In this document: piece by piece, positions 4,645 through 36,244 of the stretch
Layout of the letters: each line of letters begins with the position of its first letter
Position numbering within the stretch: position 1 is the first letter of the stretch
Assembly (NCBI GenBank): GCA_029262335.1
Contig: JAJCZQ010000009.1
Location: 58,539 to 122,538, forward strand
Direction: 5' to 3'
DNA length: 64,000 nucleotides
Source: Deltaproteobacteria bacterium
GTDB lineage: Bacteria > Desulfobacterota_D > UBA1144 > Nemesobacterales > JAJCZQ01
The notes under the pieces: generated by a model
What the model saw: the letters and a program-made list of their open reading frames with translations, nothing else
Told to the model about the DNA's origin: nothing
Database searches by the model: none
Translations under genes and position numbers: made by a program

Positions 4645-5549
4645 ATTCCCTCACTTAAATACCTGAAGCCGCTGTCAGGCAGGACGGTAACTATTACTCC
4701 GCTATCAAGGGTTTTTGCTACCTCGTATACAGCCTGAATAGCTGCTCCCCCCGAATGCCCTACAAACAGGCCCTTTTTGTCCATTAGGTATTTCATCATA
4801 TCGTATGATTCTTCTGTGCCAATGCCCATAATTTCATCGGGGAATGATTCCCTGAAAATACCCGGCTGGATAGAAGACGGCATATGCTTAAGCCCCTCAA
4901 GGCCGTGAAGTGATTCTGCCGGCTGCATTGCGATAACTTTTATATTTTTATTAAATTCCTTTAACCTTGCCCCTGTCCCCATAACTGTGCCGCTGGTGCC
5001 CATGCCTGCAATAAAATGAGTAATTTTTTTATCGGTCTGTTCCCAAATCTCCGGGGCAGTCGTATGGTAATGTGCAAGGGGGTTTGAGGGGTTGTTGTAC
5101 TGGTCAGGCATATAGTATTTTTTTGGATTTTCTTTCTTTAATTTGCGTGCCAGTAGTATTGCTCCGTCTGATCCTTCGAGCGGGTCTGAATTTATTACTT
5201 TCGCCCCGTATGCTTCAAGTACTTTTTTTCTTTCAAAGTTTATATTTTCGGGTGTTACCAGCTCTACCTGATACCCAAGGGTCCTGCCGATCATTGCATA
5301 CGCAATTGCAGTATTTCCGGATGATGAATCCATTATTATCTTATCTTTTGTAAGTTCACCTGAATCAATGCCGTCCATAATCATCCTGTATGCGGGCCTG
5401 TCTTTTACAGATCCACCGGGATTAAACCACTCAGCCTTGGCGTACATTTTCACACCCGGGCTGATATCATCGTACATATCGCTAAAGGATATAAGGGGTG
5501 TGTTGCCTATCAATTCAAGCAAGCTTTTAGAATTCCTGGTTTTTGTCAC
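4635..5549 (-). CDS. PLP-dependent cysteine synthase (CysK/CysM family)
   Basis: LLELIGNTPLI, GGSVKDRPAYRMI, SSSGNTAIAYAM, GMGTSGTVMGTG motifs. Confidence 0.93.
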   Translation of the reverse strand: MTKTRNSKSLLELIGNTPLISFSDMYDDISPGVKMYAKAEWFNPGGSVKDRPAYRMIMDGIDSGELTKDKIIMDSSSGNTAIAYAMIGRTLGYQVELVTPENINFERKKVLEAYGAKVINSDPLEGSDGAILLARKLKKENPKKYYMPDQYNNPSNPLAHYHTTAPEIWEQTDKKITHFIAGMGTSGTVMGTGARLKEFNKNIKVIAMQPAESLHGLEGLKHMPSSIQPGIFRESFPDEIMGIGTEESYDMMKYLMDKKGLFVGHSGGAAIQAVYEVAKTLDSGVIVTVLPDSGFRYLSEGIWW

Positions 5550-22670: not shown

Positions 22671-23942
22671 TTATGATGCCTTTGTGATTGGAAGTTCATT
22701 CCAGTTTGTAGTGTACCTGGGGCTGACCATATTCCTTTTCATAGCCCAGGGCTTCTTTATGCCGGAACTTGCATATTTAATAGTGTCTCTTCCCCATACC
22801 ATGTTGATCTCATCCATTGCATCCATAATTTCCATATGCCCTGCAAGGTTTCTGCTTGTATAAAACAGGTTTAGCTGGACTGCGTTATCCGGGCATATCT
22901 CTGCAAGCATAACCCCTGCTTTTTTATACCTGTAGCCGGGTTTATAGAGATTGTCTAAAAGCATATGGGCGGTTTTTATGAAGTCAGGCGTGTAACTTGT
23001 GGGTTCGGGAAGGTATGTCCCCATAGAGTTATTGTACTGCGGCCCGTCCTTGTATTTATTGGTTTTAAGAAATACGGATATATACCTTGCGACACTGTTT
23101 TGCTGCCTCAGCTTTTCCCCGGCCCTGCTTGCATGCATGGAGACCGCTTCCCTGAGTTCATTCAGCTCAAACACGTCATGCCCAAAGCTCCTTGACCTCA
23201 GTATCTCTTTCTTTTCGGGTTCTACGTTTTCTATCTCAATGCAGGAAGTTCCTCTCAGCTCGAGTGCGGTCCTGTAACCAACCACTGTCATGCGTTTCCT
23301 GATAAAGGTGTCGGCGGTGTTTTTAAGTTCAAGAGCGGAGTATATGCCGTTGCTCTTAAGGAGCCGCGTATATGCCCTTCCTATTCCCCATATGTCGCTT
23401 ACATCTATTCTTGAGAGTATCTCATCTCTTTTGGGATTGTTGTATATGCTGAATACACCGCCAAGTTCGGGCATCTTTTTGGCGACCCTGTTTGCCACTT
23501 TTGCAAGTGTTTTGGTCTCCCCGATTCCGACGCTTACGGGAATTCCCGTCCATTTGAGTACTGTCTTTCTTATCTCTTCACCGTATTCCTGCAGATCTCT
23601 TCTTTCGAAACCCTTTAACGAAAGAAACGCTTCATCTATCGAATAGATCTCTATGTCAGGGGTGAATTTATTAAGTACTGACATTACCCTTGCCGACATA
23701 TCGGAGTAAAGGGTGTAGTTGGAAGAAAAACATTTGATGTCGTGAAGTATTACGTCCTTTGTGTGTTTGTGAATAGGCGCGCCCATGGGTATCCACTTTT
23801 TGGCTTCAGTCGAACGTGACACTGCGCAACCGTCGTTGTTTGAAAGCACAACTACGGGCTTTCCTTCGAGCGAAGGGTCAAACACTCTTTCACATGAAAC
23901 ATAAAAAGAGTTGCAGTCTACAAGGGCATATATCCGTGACAT
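22671..23942 (-). CDS. umuC: Y-family DNA polymerase UmuC (DNA polymerase V catalytic subunit)
   Basis: [75 protein letters not shown]. Confidence 0.95.
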
Positions 23943-23976
23943 CTTCAACCTCACCTAGAGTATTTAGTGCCGGAGT

Positions 23977-24648
23977 TTAGGATACCGAGATAAAACACTC
24001 AGGCAAATCGTTCTTCCATGAGTTTACAACATCACTTACCCTGTAACTGTCCATCTTGTTTGAATCATAGGGTACAAGAAGTTCTTTAAGCTCTGCTTCA
24101 TTGCTTTTGGGGTCAAGCCATATCTGCCTGTTGCTCTCAGGAAGGATTACGGGCATACGGTCATGAACAGGTCTCATTAGATCATTTTCTGAAGTTGTTA
24201 TGATCGTAAATGTATAAAGTGGATCATCTTGTTTTTCCCAAATGTCCCAAAGCCCTGCCATTGCAAAAAGCTTTTTATCTTTCATTGTAAACCGGTAGGG
24301 GATTTTTGTTTTTTTATCAGGCTTTTGCCATTCGTAAAAACCATCTGCTATTACAAGGCATCTTTGGGATTTAAATGGTTTCTTAAAGCTCGGTTTCTCT
24401 GAAATAGTTTCAGCACGGGCATTTATCATTCGGTATCCCATTTTTGTGTCTTTTGACCACGATGGAACAAGTCCCCATTTAAACATTCTGAGTTTGTTAT
24501 TACCATCTTCATTTATTATCACGGGGGAAAGCTGGGAGGGGGCAATATTGTATCTTGGCTGTATTATGTCATCAAAAGGTTCATCGATAAATGTGAATTC
24601 ATCATAAAGCTCTTCGAGGTCCTTTGCCTGTGAAAATCTTCCGCACAT
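23977..24648 (-). CDS. SRAP-domain protein (HMCES/YedK family)
   Basis: MCGRFSQ N-terminus with Cys2, PRYNIAPSQ, MINARAETISEKPSFKKPFKSQRCLVIADGFYEW, PVHDRMPVIL. Confidence 0.96.
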   Translation of the reverse strand: MCGRFSQAKDLEELYDEFTFIDEPFDDIIQPRYNIAPSQLSPVIINEDGNNKLRMFKWGLVPSWSKDTKMGYRMINARAETISEKPSFKKPFKSQRCLVIADGFYEWQKPDKKTKIPYRFTMKDKKLFAMAGLWDIWEKQDDPLYTFTIITTSENDLMRPVHDRMPVILPESNRQIWLDPKSNEAELKELLVPYDSNKMDSYRVSDVVNSWKNDLPECFISVS

Positions 24649-31685: not shown

Positions 31686-31766
31686 GGTTGGGGAAAGAAA
31701 ATAACCTTTAATAAGGGTTTGGACAAATTATTGTTATTCCCATACTCATTGGAAACCTTATAACTT

Positions 31767-31795
31767 TGTCATTCCCAACTTGATTGGGAATCCAG
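31767..31795 (+). repeat. Palindromic repeat family A (left inverted arm)
   Basis: TGTCATTCCCAACTTGATTGGGAATCCAG; exact reverse complement of 32151-32179; internal 8-bp stem ATTCCCAA/TTGGGAAT. Confidence 0.92.
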
Positions 31796-31811
31796 TCTTT
31801 CAGAAATTATA

Positions 31812-31839
31812 TGTCATTCCCGTGAAAACGGGAATCCAG
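31812..31839 (+). repeat. Palindromic repeat family A (second left copy)
   Basis: TGTCATTCCCGTGAAAACGGGAATCCAG; 8-bp stem ATTCCCGT/ACGGGAAT with GAAA loop. Confidence 0.9.
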
Positions 31840-31842
31840 GAA

Positions 31843-32130
31843 TTATTTAAGTATTTCATCATAAAGATCATACCACTCTGGATTCTTATCCTCTATCAAT
31901 TCTAGTTTCCATTTCCTGTTCCATCTTTTTATTTGTTTTTCTCTTTTGATTGCACTTTGTATATCCTGTGTTTTATCGTAATAAACAAGATTATGTACTT
32001 GATATTTTTTGGTGAATCCTTCGGTTAAATCATTTTTATGTTCATATACTCTTTTAATTAGGTCTGATGTTACACCTATATAAATTTTTCCATTCCTTTT
32101 ACTAGCCATAATGTATATGTAGTAATCCAT
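31843..32130 (-). CDS. GIY-YIG nuclease family protein, copy 1
   Basis: YYIYIMASKRNGKIYIGVTSDLIKRVYEHKN...IKREKQIKRWNRKWKLELIEDKNPEWYDLYDEI; start reassigned to 32130 because upstream codons lie in the repeat. Confidence 0.93.
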   Translation of the reverse strand: MDYYIYIMASKRNGKIYIGVTSDLIKRVYEHKNDLTEGFTKKYQVHNLVYYDKTQDIQSAIKREKQIKRWNRKWKLELIEDKNPEWYDLYDEILK

Positions 32131-32150
32131 ATAGAAGATATTAATTTTTT

Positions 32151-32179
32151 CTGGATTCCCAATCAAGTTGGGAATGACA
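32151..32179 (-). repeat. Palindromic repeat family A (right inverted arm)
   Basis: CTGGATTCCCAATCAAGTTGGGAATGACA. Confidence 0.92.
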
Positions 32180-32281
32180 GAGGAGTGAGTTGGGAATATT
32201 TTGGAATCGAGTTGTTTGGGTTAGTGAATCTAAATATAAATTTGAAATACCAGCACTAGCATTATTTTTTGTGTGCCGGAG

Positions 32282-32704
32282 TTATGGCCGGTGTATCACA
32301 AAAGTAACAACGCCCATAATTCTGAAATCGGATAGGGGCCTTATCTCTATGGGGTCGTATTTTGGGTTATCAGGCATAAGAAGCACGCTTGTGCCTTTAA
32401 TACTCAGTCTTTTTACGGTGAGTTCTCCGTCGAGGTTTGCAACAACGACCTTGTTGTTGTCGGCTTCAATTGCACGGTCTACAACCAGAATGTCTCCGTC
32501 ATAAATTCCCGCGTTAATCATCGAATCGCCTTCTACTTTCACGAGGTAAGTATCCGAGGGGTGTTTTACAAGTTCGTTGAGATCAAGGGTCTGGTCTATA
32601 TAGTCATCACCCGGGCTTGGGAATCCTGCAGGAACTCTTGAAGAAAAGAGCGGAAGCTCAAGCTTTGTGGACTGATCGAGTGAATATATTTCCGTGACTC
32701 TCAT
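32282..32704 (-). CDS. umuD: UmuD-like S24 self-cleaving peptidase
   Basis: PAGFPSPGDDYIDQTLDLNELV; catalytic Ser in EGDSMINAGIYDGD and Lys in ELTVKRL. Confidence 0.94.
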   Translation of the reverse strand: MRVTEIYSLDQSTKLELPLFSSRVPAGFPSPGDDYIDQTLDLNELVKHPSDTYLVKVEGDSMINAGIYDGDILVVDRAIEADNNKVVVANLDGELTVKRLSIKGTSVLLMPDNPKYDPIEIRPLSDFRIMGVVTFVIHRP

Positions 32705-32716
32705 TATAGTAAAAGT

Positions 32717-32736
32717 ATTACTAAATATTTAGTGAT
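32717..32736. promoter_or_regulatory. Palindromic putative operator upstream of umuD
   Basis: ATTACTAAATATTTAGTGAT, 18/20 palindromic, 13 bp upstream of umuD start. Confidence 0.5.
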
Positions 32737-32772: not shown

Positions 32773-33069
32773 ATGAAGGGCAAAAGCTATTATGTTTATA
32801 TTCTTACGAATAAAAACAATAATGTTTTATATACAGGTGTTACAAATGATTTACAGAGAAGGATCTACGAACATAAAAATAAAATAATTAGTGGATTTAC
32901 AGAAAAATATAATGTCAATAAATTGGTCTATTTTGAAGAAACTTCTGATATTGAGTCAGCTATCTTAAGGGAAAAGCAAATTAAGTCTGGTTCCAGGCAA
33001 AAGAAGGTTGATTTGATAAATAGTTGTAATGAGGAATGGGCTGATTTATCAAAAGACTGGTACGACTAG
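32773..33069 (+). CDS. GIY-YIG nuclease family protein, copy 2
   Basis: YYVYILTNKNNNVLYTGVTNDLQRRIYEHKN...ILREKQIKSGSRQKKVDLINSCNEEWADLSKDWYD. Confidence 0.93.
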   Translation: MKGKSYYVYILTNKNNNVLYTGVTNDLQRRIYEHKNKIISGFTEKYNVNKLVYFEETSDIESAILREKQIKSGSRQKKVDLINSCNEEWADLSKDWYD

Positions 33070-33072
33070 GCT

Positions 33073-33145
33073 GTCATTGCGAACGTATGTGAAGCAATCT
33101 CACGTATTATGGCAGGAGATCGCCGCGCCTTTGGCTCGCGATGAC
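33073..33145 (+). repeat. Interspersed repeat family B, copy 1
   Basis: GTCATTGCGAACGTATGTGAAGCAATCTCACG...GATCGCCGCGCCTTTGGCTCGCGATGAC. Confidence 0.9.
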
Positions 33146-33188
33146 ATAGGGAAGGATATTGATATCGAATAATTGGTACGACTAGGCT

Positions 33189-33261
33189 GTCATTGCGAAC
33201 GTACGTGAAGCAATCTCATGTATTAAGGCAGGTGATCGCCGCGCCTTTGGCTCGCGATGAC
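33189..33261 (+). repeat. Interspersed repeat family B, copy 2 (116-bp period from copy 1)
   Basis: GTCATTGCGAACGTACGTGAAGCAATCTCATG...GATCGCCGCGCCTTTGGCTCGCGATGAC. Confidence 0.9.
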
Positions 33262-33268
33262 ATTAAAG

Positions 33269-33637
33269 CTATAAACTATGCACCACATAAACCACAACGC
33301 CCCATACATCCGCTTCTTTTACCTTTTTTGATAAGGGGACTATGGTTAGTTCTTCATTAACTGTACTTATTATCATATTGCCATAAGTAGGGTCAGTGCT
33401 CCTGTCCACTATCAGCAGATCACCGTCGTGAATACCGGCGTAGTTAAGGGAATTGCCTTCCGCTATAACAAAGAAAGTGGCTTCCGGGTTTTTTATAAGC
33501 AGTTTGTTGAGGTCTACCTTTTCTTCTACATGACCGTCCCCAAAGGTGGGTGATCCGGCCCTTACCATTTCGGTAAAATATGGAAGGACTGTTCCCCTTA
33601 CATTTTCGAAAGAATATATATCTTTTATGTTGTTCAT
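33269..33637 (-). CDS. UmuD-like protein, predicted catalytically inactive
   Basis: VRAGSPTFGDGHVEEKVDLNKLLIKNPEATFFVIAEGNSLNYAGIHDGDLLIVDRS...ELTIVPLSKK; UmuD-like but TVKxL Lys position is Val. Confidence 0.85.
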   Translation of the reverse strand: MNNIKDIYSFENVRGTVLPYFTEMVRAGSPTFGDGHVEEKVDLNKLLIKNPEATFFVIAEGNSLNYAGIHDGDLLIVDRSTDPTYGNMIISTVNEELTIVPLSKKVKEADVWGVVVYVVHSL

Positions 33638-33667: not shown

Positions 33668-33683
33668 TGTAATAAATATTACA
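33668..33683. promoter_or_regulatory. Inverted repeat upstream of UmuD-like gene
   Basis: TGTAATA-AA-TATTACA, followed by CACTAAAT at 33682-33689. Confidence 0.4.
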
Positions 33684-33748: not shown

Positions 33749-34366
33749 ATGTCTGATTATAATACAAAAAAGATACTGATACTGTTTGCACATCCTGCCA
33801 TGCAGAAGTCCAGGGTGAATAAACATCTTATCGAACCACTAACCAATATAGATGGTGTGACCTTCCACGACCTCTACGACAGTTACCCGGATATGTATAT
33901 TGATATTGAGAGGGAAAAGAAACTCCTTGTTGAGTACGATATTATCATTTTTCACCACCCGTTTTACTGGTACAGCAGTCCGGCAATAATCAAGGAATGG
34001 CAGGATCTGGTACTTGAGTTTGGCTTTGCATACGGCCCCGGGGGCACAGCGCTTAAGGGCAAAAAGTTGATGAATGTTATATCCACCGGAGCAGGAAGGC
34101 ATGCCTACACGAGAGAAGGCCACAACAAATACAGTATCAGGGAATTCCTGAGGCCATTTGAACAAACTGCAAACCTCTGCCATATGCAGTACCTGCCGCC
34201 ATTTGTCCTTCACGATGCAATGAACATAAATGTAAATCTCGACCTTCACTTTTTTACGGAACTATTAAGGAATATGCTTACGCAGCTTATGAACAATAAG
34301 ATTGATTTTAAAGAGCTGGCGAGTTTTGAATATATGAACGACTATTTTATGGGACCGGAGAGCTAG
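33749..34366 (+). CDS. NAD(P)H oxidoreductase, KefF/KefG-like flavodoxin-fold
   Basis: KILILFAHPAMQKSRVNKHLIEPL, FHHPFYWYSSPAIIKEWQDLVLEFGFAYGPGGTALKGKKLM; upstream of KefC-like gene. Confidence 0.9.
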   Translation: MSDYNTKKILILFAHPAMQKSRVNKHLIEPLTNIDGVTFHDLYDSYPDMYIDIEREKKLLVEYDIIIFHHPFYWYSSPAIIKEWQDLVLEFGFAYGPGGTALKGKKLMNVISTGAGRHAYTREGHNKYSIREFLRPFEQTANLCHMQYLPPFVLHDAMNINVNLDLHFFTELLRNMLTQLMNNKIDFKELASFEYMNDYFMGPES

Positions 34367-34372
34367 CCTGAA

Positions 34373-36244
34373 ATGATAGACCATTTTCTATTCCAGGTTT
34401 TTATTTATCTTGTAGCGGCAGTAGTATCAGTGCCGATTGCCAAGAGGCTCGGACTTGGTTCGGTGCTCGGGTACCTGATTGCGGGTGTGATAATAGGACC
34501 GTTTGTTCTGAAGCTTGTGGGGCAGGACACCGAAGACGTTATGCATTTTGCCGAGTTTGGTGTTGTCCTTATGCTTTTTCTAATCGGGCTTGAACTTCGC
34601 CCGGCGCTTCTATGGCGGCTTAAAAAACAGATACTTGGTGTAGGAAGTTCACAGGTTGCGCTTACTACTGCAATAATATTTGCAATAGCTTATTTTGTAG
34701 GGCTTCAGTGGAAGGAATCACTTGCTATTGGCCTGATACTGGCACTTTCTTCAACAGCTATAGTCCTGCAGACATTAAGTGAAAAGGGGCTTCTTAAGAC
34801 GCAGGCAGGGAGGAACTCTTTTTCGGTACTGCTTTTCCAGGATATTTCGCTGATACCAATTTTGGCATTCCTTCCACTTCTCGCAATTGCTGCCGTAGAG
34901 TCACATTCAGGCGGAGGACACGATGGATATGGTACCAACTATGTGGAAAAACTTGAATCGTGGCAGCTTGTTCTCCTGATTCTTTTTATTGTTAGTTTTA
35001 TTATTGTTGGCGGAAGGTTCCTTTCCCGCCCGGTCTTTAAATTCATTGCGGGCACAAATCTAAGGGAGATATTCATAGCATTTGCACTGTTTCTTATTGT
35101 TGGAATTACGCTTGCAATGCAGTTTGTCGGGCTTTCTCCGGCGCTTGGCACTTTCCTCGCCGGTGTTGTACTTGCCGACAGTGAATACAGGCATGCAATA
35201 GAAACAGACATCGAACCCTTTAAGGGGCTTCTTCTCGGACTGTTTTTTATCTCAATCGGTGCAAGCATTAATTTTAATTTACTTTTTAATAATGCTGAAC
35301 TTATTGCCTTACTCTTATTTGGACTGATAGTTATAAAGTTCTTCGTACTGCTGTTTGTCGGCAAGATCTTTAAATTCAACAACTCTGAAAATTTCCTTTT
35401 CTCCTTTGCACTGGCACAGGGAGGGGAATTTGCATTTGTACTGTTTTCGTTTGCCTCACAAAACAATGTTGTTTCAGTAGAGAATACGCAGGTGCTTATT
35501 TTGGTTGTTGCACTCTCAATGCTTCTTACACCTCTTATGTTTATTATCAACGAGAAGTTTGTTCAAAAGAGTTTAAACAAGAAGGCAGATGATGACGAAG
35601 AAGTTGAAATTGAAGAAAACAATCCCGTAATAATTGCGGGGTTTGGAAGGTTTGGCCAGATAGTGGGGCGTTTTCTCCATGCCCATGAAATTGGTACTAC
35701 TGTGCTTGACCATGATGCAAGTCAGATAGATCTTGTAAGGCGTTTTGGATACAAAGTCTATTACGGCGACAGCTCAAGCCCCGACCTTTTAAGGGCCGCA
35801 GGAGCGGAGGAAGCAAAGCTTTTTGTAGTCGCAATTGATGATAAAGAAAAAGCCAATGAGACTGTAAAAACTATTAAGAAACATTTTCCACATCTCAAGA
35901 TTATGGCAAGGGCATTCGACAGATCACACACTTACGAACTGCTTCACGAAGGAGTAGATAATGTGAGGCGGGAGACTTTTGATTCGGCACTTCAGCTTGG
36001 CATTGATGCGTTGGTCAGCATGGGTTATCCAAAATACCAGGCAAGCAGAGACGCCCTGACTTTTAAACACCATGATGAACAGACCCTGAGTGAACTTGCA
36101 GAACACTGGGGCGATGAGAAGAAATACATTCTCCATTCAAATGAACGAAATAAGAACCTGCTCCAGATTCTAAGGGAAGATGAAAAAGGAATTGATGATT
36201 CTAATGACCATTCGTGGGAAAGACCTTTTGACCCTGAGGAATAG
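34373..36244 (+). CDS. Glutathione-regulated K+ efflux (KefB/KefC-type) CPA2 antiporter with RCK/TrkA-N domain
   Basis: LGSVLGYLIAGVIIGPF, LMLFLIGLEL, ALSSTAIVLQTLSEKG, PVIIAGFGRFGQIVGRFL. Confidence 0.93.
   Translation: MIDHFLFQVFIYLVAAVVSVPIAKRLGLGSVLGYLIAGVIIGPFVLKLVGQDTEDVMHFAEFGVVLMLFLIGLELRPALLWRLKKQILGVGSSQVALTTAIIFAIAYFVGLQWKESLAIGLILALSSTAIVLQTLSEKGLLKTQAGRNSFSVLLFQDISLIPILAFLPLLAIAAVESHSGGGHDGYGTNYVEKLESWQLVLLILFIVSFIIVGGRFLSRPVFKFIAGTNLREIFIAFALFLIVGITLAMQFVGLSPALGTFLAGVVLADSEYRHAIETDIEPFKGLLLGLFFISIGASINFNLLFNNAELIALLLFGLIVIKFFVLLFVGKIFKFNNSENFLFSFALAQGGEFAFVLFSFASQNNVVSVENTQVLILVVALSMLLTPLMFIINEKFVQKSLNKKADDDEEVEIEENNPVIIAGFGRFGQIVGRFLHAHEIGTTVLDHDASQIDLVRRFGYKVYYGDSSSPDLLRAAGAEEAKLFVVAIDDKEKANETVKTIKKHFPHLKIMARAFDRSHTYELLHEGVDNVRRETFDSALQLGIDALVSMGYPKYQASRDALTFKHHDEQTLSELAEHWGDEKKYILHSNERNKNLLQILREDEKGIDDSNDHSWERPFDPEE

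Follow-up and report, generated by a model that had tools for sequence, protein, structure and literature searches.

A diverged UmuD paralogue without the catalytic lysine in a deltaproteobacterial genome, and its possible part in tuning DNA polymerase V

The deltaproteobacterial DNA analysed here (a stretch of 64,000 nucleotides, “the window”) carries, in addition to a gene for UmuD of the active type, an intact and strongly diverged UmuD paralogue that lacks the catalytic lysine and is thus unable to perform Ser-Lys self-cleavage, a conclusion well supported by the alignments. In the textbook account, the mutagenic DNA polymerase V (Pol V) is switched on when UmuD cleaves itself. The reading that we prefer, tentatively and with somewhat less than even confidence, is that this “pseudoprotease” pairs with the active UmuD and in this way tunes Pol V.

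The open reading frame that the first-pass annotation had assigned to the UmuD family (Table 1) has exactly the extent and strand given there and does belong to that family: it matches Peptidase_S24 (5.3e-16), the solved structures of UmuD and UmuD' (1.7e-20) and NCBIfam NF007621, the Pol V autoproteolytic subunit (2.7e-24), the last with 85.4 bits and so below the cut-off of 110. It is 31% identical to the neighbouring UmuD. The best PDB matches of its AlphaFold model, in which core pLDDT is mostly 86-95 (by blocks), are the UmuD' structures 1ay9 and 1umu (TM-score 0.75 to 1ay9, 2.0 A), and the predicted fold is that of S24/UmuD'. A Pfam search of the protein returned no DNA-binding domain of the LexA or UmuDAb type, and its N-terminal part is too short for one.

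The catalytic site was read from alignments of 33 and 57 relatives, and both motifs are as the annotation had them: the serine of GNSL stands in a column that is invariant across the 57 sequences, and TIVPL puts valine into the nearly invariant lysine column, with the complete dyad kept, again as claimed, in the neighbour. A substitute lysine in the active site, for which the SKK motif had been named as a candidate, is ruled out by the alignment and the predicted strand, since the SKK lysines align 4 and 5 positions past the catalytic lysine, beyond the predicted strand 96-101. The shortened loop described after the lysine position is likewise real and is due to the in-frame deletion of a hairpin of about 20 amino acids; the neighbour's IKGTSVLLMPDNPKYDPIEI is absent after SKK, and the last strand, VWGVVVYVVH, is retained. 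The description of the N-terminal arm stood only in part: Ala-Gly is present, with 27 residues preceding its Gly, but DLNKLL, which had been counted to the arm, lies in the globular domain, in predicted helix 43-47. Around the Gly, 130 of 144 UmuDs read xGFP and only 3 read AGSP; the paralogue has Ser in place of the Phe.

Table 1. Coordinates of the UmuD paralogue, its sites and associated features in the window
Feature	Position	Strand	Remarks
Lys-less UmuD paralogue	33269..33637	-	122 aa, ATG start, no internal stop
Ser63 codon (GNSL)	33449..33451	-	nucleophile position kept; invariant column, 57-row alignment
Val100 codon at catalytic Lys position	33338..33340	-	TIVPL for TVKRL; alignments
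Ala27-Gly28, cleavage-site-like dipeptide	33554..33559	-	Phe of GFPSP changed to Ser (AGSPTF); alignment
Junction of in-frame hairpin deletion (~20 aa)	33322..33323	-	after SKK105; alignment
Active-type UmuD	32282..32704	-	140 aa; Ser61/Lys98, PAGFPSP; NCBIfam 151 bits, over cut-off
umuC	22671..23954	-	NCBIfam 450.8 bits, over cut-off
SRAP/YedK-type gene (presumed)	23977..24648	-	directly upstream of umuC; weak family match, below cut-off
Perfect palindrome ACTAAATATTTAGT	32720..32733	.	upstream of umuD; resembles CTAA-N5-TTAG, but N4
Palindrome TGTAAT-N4-ATTACA	33668..33683	.	upstream of paralogue; overlaps weak promoter-like site

A fresh pseudogene is unlikely because the open reading frame is intact, the core fold is predicted with confidence and neutral simulations behave differently from the real gene. 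When neutral drift was simulated from three live UmuDs down to the observed identity of the paralogue, the runs acquired 3.2-3.6 stops on average (3-5% stayed stop-free) and reached mean family scores of 79.6, 28.6 and 52.6; the real protein, in which the hairpin columns are empty, scores 108-109. For two of the three ancestors the real score exceeds every simulation; in the weakest case, ancestor L024 (simulated mean 79.6, maximum 112.3, observed 108), it lies not far below the simulated maximum, so that the simulation supports selection and does not prove it. What the simulations suggest is past purifying selection. It is also improbable, in our judgment, that the gene is a slowly decaying relic, an old duplicate past selection and still open by chance: its long branch (~1.5 changes per site), the hairpin deletion and its absence from nearly all relatives would all fit (a genome of the same genus, 83% complete, has neither a UmuD nor a UmuC match), but the lack of any stop or frameshift, the family score above all simulations for two of three ancestors and the confident core fold speak against it.

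The genome from which the window comes (2.09 Mb in 51 contigs, 92.6% complete) encodes two UmuD homologues, of which one is of the active type, and a single UmuC, the sole Y-family polymerase found. The active-type umuD lies ~565 bp downstream of the paralogue on the same strand, a GIY-YIG gene separates the two, and umuC, 9.3 kb from the paralogue, is not in an operon with it. The gene directly upstream of umuC we take to be of the SRAP/YedK type from its start, MCGRF. In three relatives (L015, L018 and L021) the sequence upstream of umuD resembles, by eye, the end of a SRAP-type gene, and these few loci suggest that umuD has moved out of a SRAP-umuD-umuC order in the window's genome. The palindrome upstream of umuD differs in spacing from CTAA-N5-TTAG, the SOS box reported for SOS genes of Bacteroidetes (PMC8565304). 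As for the palindrome upstream of the paralogue, a conserved regulatory box was rejected because such a palindrome occurs at chance level (27 of 100 shuffles have one), and control by LexA was set aside, the window's genome having no match to the LexA DNA-binding domain.

Several other elements surround these genes. A single-domain GIY-YIG ORF (31843-32166) lies within 31764-32182 between the arms of a 32-nt inverted repeat, which are 97% complementary, an arrangement as in a small mobile element. The GIY-YIG ORF between umuD and the paralogue spans 32773-33069 and runs at its 3' end into a 101-nt direct repeat, of which it overlaps the first copy (33047-33147); the second copy (92%) lies at 33163-33263. 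Divergent from the paralogue runs a pair of genes for an NAD(P)H oxidoreductase (flavodoxin) and a Kef-type antiporter (33749-36244).

The annotation had also proposed looking for Lys-less paralogues conserved alongside active copies, a pattern that the comparison does not support: among 58 genomes of the phylum, only one other (G013) has a second UmuD. That copy (L023; locus L067, 8694-9200) is Lys-less as well, reading ELYISRI, and has AGSP where nearly all others have xGFP, its predicted structure too has a confident core, and the active-type UmuD of the same genome (L017) sits on a different contig. The active UmuDs of the two genomes are sisters (98/95), which rules out that our paralogue is a recent tandem duplicate of its neighbour. 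Orthology of the two Lys-less copies was considered and not retained, their grouping being weakly supported in one tree (68/57, with long branches) and the two not being nearest neighbours in another; they share two rare residues, as many as 8% of background pairs do, and convergent loss of the lysine appears as likely from these comparisons as common descent. No close orthologue of the paralogue was found among the relatives searched, and no plasmid relative exceeded 60% identity. A phage origin was discarded, none of 80 viral UmuD loci being Lys-less.

These surroundings bear on the possibility that the paralogue is an S24-fold protein repurposed outside Pol V, for instance one that serves a membrane or stress protein as scaffold or partner. 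It stands alone next to a Kef-type antiporter pair, the start of the Lys-less copy of G013 overlaps an MscS-like channel gene at its end (a hint that Lys-less copies may do something else), and in one member of the superfamily, SipA, both residues of the dyad are known to be replaced (PMC12984324). The neighbourhoods of the two Lys-less copies differ, however, and the flavodoxin-Kef pair recurs in four f7 genomes (G034, G036, G038 and G042), where the stretches read show no adjacent UmuD; we regard repurposing as having a rather low probability.

What the paralogue might do within Pol V can be framed by work on E. coli, in which UmuD and UmuD' exchange subunits and the arm of a catalytically dead subunit can be cut in trans by its active partner (PMC5342242), UmuD(K97A) holds UmuC at the membrane (PMC4552617), and in a structural model of Pol V one UmuD' has its conserved N-terminal end near the active site of UmuC (PMC11791011). 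If it is expressed, the paralogue most likely takes on the usual UmuD architecture, a folded body plus an N-terminal arm, and would work through protein contacts. It would pair with the active UmuD (or UmuD') of the neighbouring gene, and this pairing would alter the amount of cleavable or cleaved dimer that reaches and binds the single UmuC, so that Pol V would be tuned, probably downward, given that the arm lacks the conserved Phe. With this change at the end that the model places by UmuC, and with no way to make a UmuD' of its own, a mixed dimer that lowers Pol V activity is the most economical reading, and the heterodimeric antagonist first proposed for this gene is a plausible one. Against such tuning count the position of the paralogue outside the umuC operon and the GIY-YIG gene between it and umuD; loss of the hairpin could also disturb the dimer or the contact with UmuC.

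A mixed dimer might also have another outcome. Since its arm retains Ala-Gly, the paralogue may be a substrate that the dyad of the active UmuD cuts in trans, giving a UmuD'-like form that offers UmuC a different arm (GSPTFG). The E. coli precedent and the retention of the dipeptide together with the first 27 residues favour this, but the most conserved residue of the arm, the Phe, is changed, the hairpin is lost and the pairing with UmuD is itself presumed, and we consider this reading unlikely.

The dyad is intact in most of the UmuDs that we sampled, and its loss reaches beyond this one gene. Serine and lysine were both present in 110 of 113 distinct sequences of a first survey and in 138 of 144 once 30 Bacteroidota loci were added; because sequences were sampled by similarity, the figures should not be read as population frequencies. 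The exceptions include three in-operon UmuDs that have Ala for Ser and Arg for Lys, all of one Bacteroidota family (Balneolaceae, at a guess). Among 92 genomes of this family, 41 have a UmuD match, always one per genome, and the family search found no second UmuD. The dyad is absent from all 40 readable copies (L208-L247; also L193 and L196-L202), the 41st (L248) being broken: the lysine position holds Arg or Cys in every one, and the serine is usually lost too (to Ala, Gly, Asp, Glu or Asn), being kept in three. The cleavage dipeptide is mostly T-G, and umuC lies within the fetched stretch at 27 of 30 loci. Pairwise dN/dS in five close species is 0.07-0.21 for umuD and 0.02-0.05 for umuC. In a tree of 114 rows the copies of this family form one group (SH-aLRT 95) that takes in only one other sequence, the long-branched L014. 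The latter (4700-5146 of its locus) is a Saprospiraceae homologue with QSFP for the A/C-G site and Arg for the lysine; it is the only UmuD match in its genome, and no umuC was seen in its 10-kb locus.

With dN/dS of about 0.1 in five species and umuC mostly alongside, these dyad-less UmuDs indicate that loss of cleavage is tolerated and maintained elsewhere. They are presumably working Pol V subunits. That an entire family has a single, mostly umuC-linked UmuD without the dyad means that dyad loss alone does not imply antagonism, and “dead” need not mean “inhibitor.” We find this family-wide condition no less interesting than the paralogue in the window. Seen together, the stand-alone Lys-less paralogues of the window's lineage and the sole, umuC-linked UmuD of the Bacteroidota family raise the idea, which seems to us possible though doubtful, that RecA-triggered self-cleavage of UmuD has been lost repeatedly; if so, there are ways to assemble or control Pol V that do without UmuD autoproteolysis, and the self-cutting switch may not be universal. 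Natural dyad-less UmuDs offer a direct test of whether Pol V requires cleavage, and of whether cells make their own dominant-negative UmuD; a limited search of the open literature turned up no paper on natural Lys-less UmuDs. They also call for caution in annotation, as the automatic label “autoproteolytic subunit” reaches proteins without the dyad: one copy of the Bacteroidota family (L198) scores over the NCBIfam cut-off despite the missing residues.

Compared with known systems, the paralogue resembles E. coli UmuD and its K97A mutant, sharing the fold, the retained serine and a cleavage-site-like dipeptide and missing the lysine as K97A does; it is, for its part, a natural gene with the hairpin deleted and the Phe of the arm changed, and it coexists with an active-type UmuD and is not beside umuC. 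The UmuDs of the Bacteroidota family likewise have the lysine replaced, but these are full-length proteins, usually encoded beside umuC and the only UmuD found, and most have lost the serine as well and carry T-G in place of A/C-G. Another relative within the UmuD family is HumD of phage P1 (NCBIfam NF051876), to which the paralogue scores 47 bits against a cut-off of 120. HumD is a ready-made UmuD' without the arm; the paralogue has kept its own. UmuDAb of Acinetobacter is, like our protein, a UmuD paralogue with a changed role, but it undergoes cleavage and bears a DNA-binding part at its N terminus (PMC8565304), whereas the paralogue has neither a DNA-binding domain nor a complete dyad. SipA of Streptococcus pyogenes, finally, is another protein of the LexA/signal peptidase superfamily in which the dyad is missing (PMC12984324); in contrast to the paralogue, it belongs to the signal-peptidase branch and is unrelated to Pol V.
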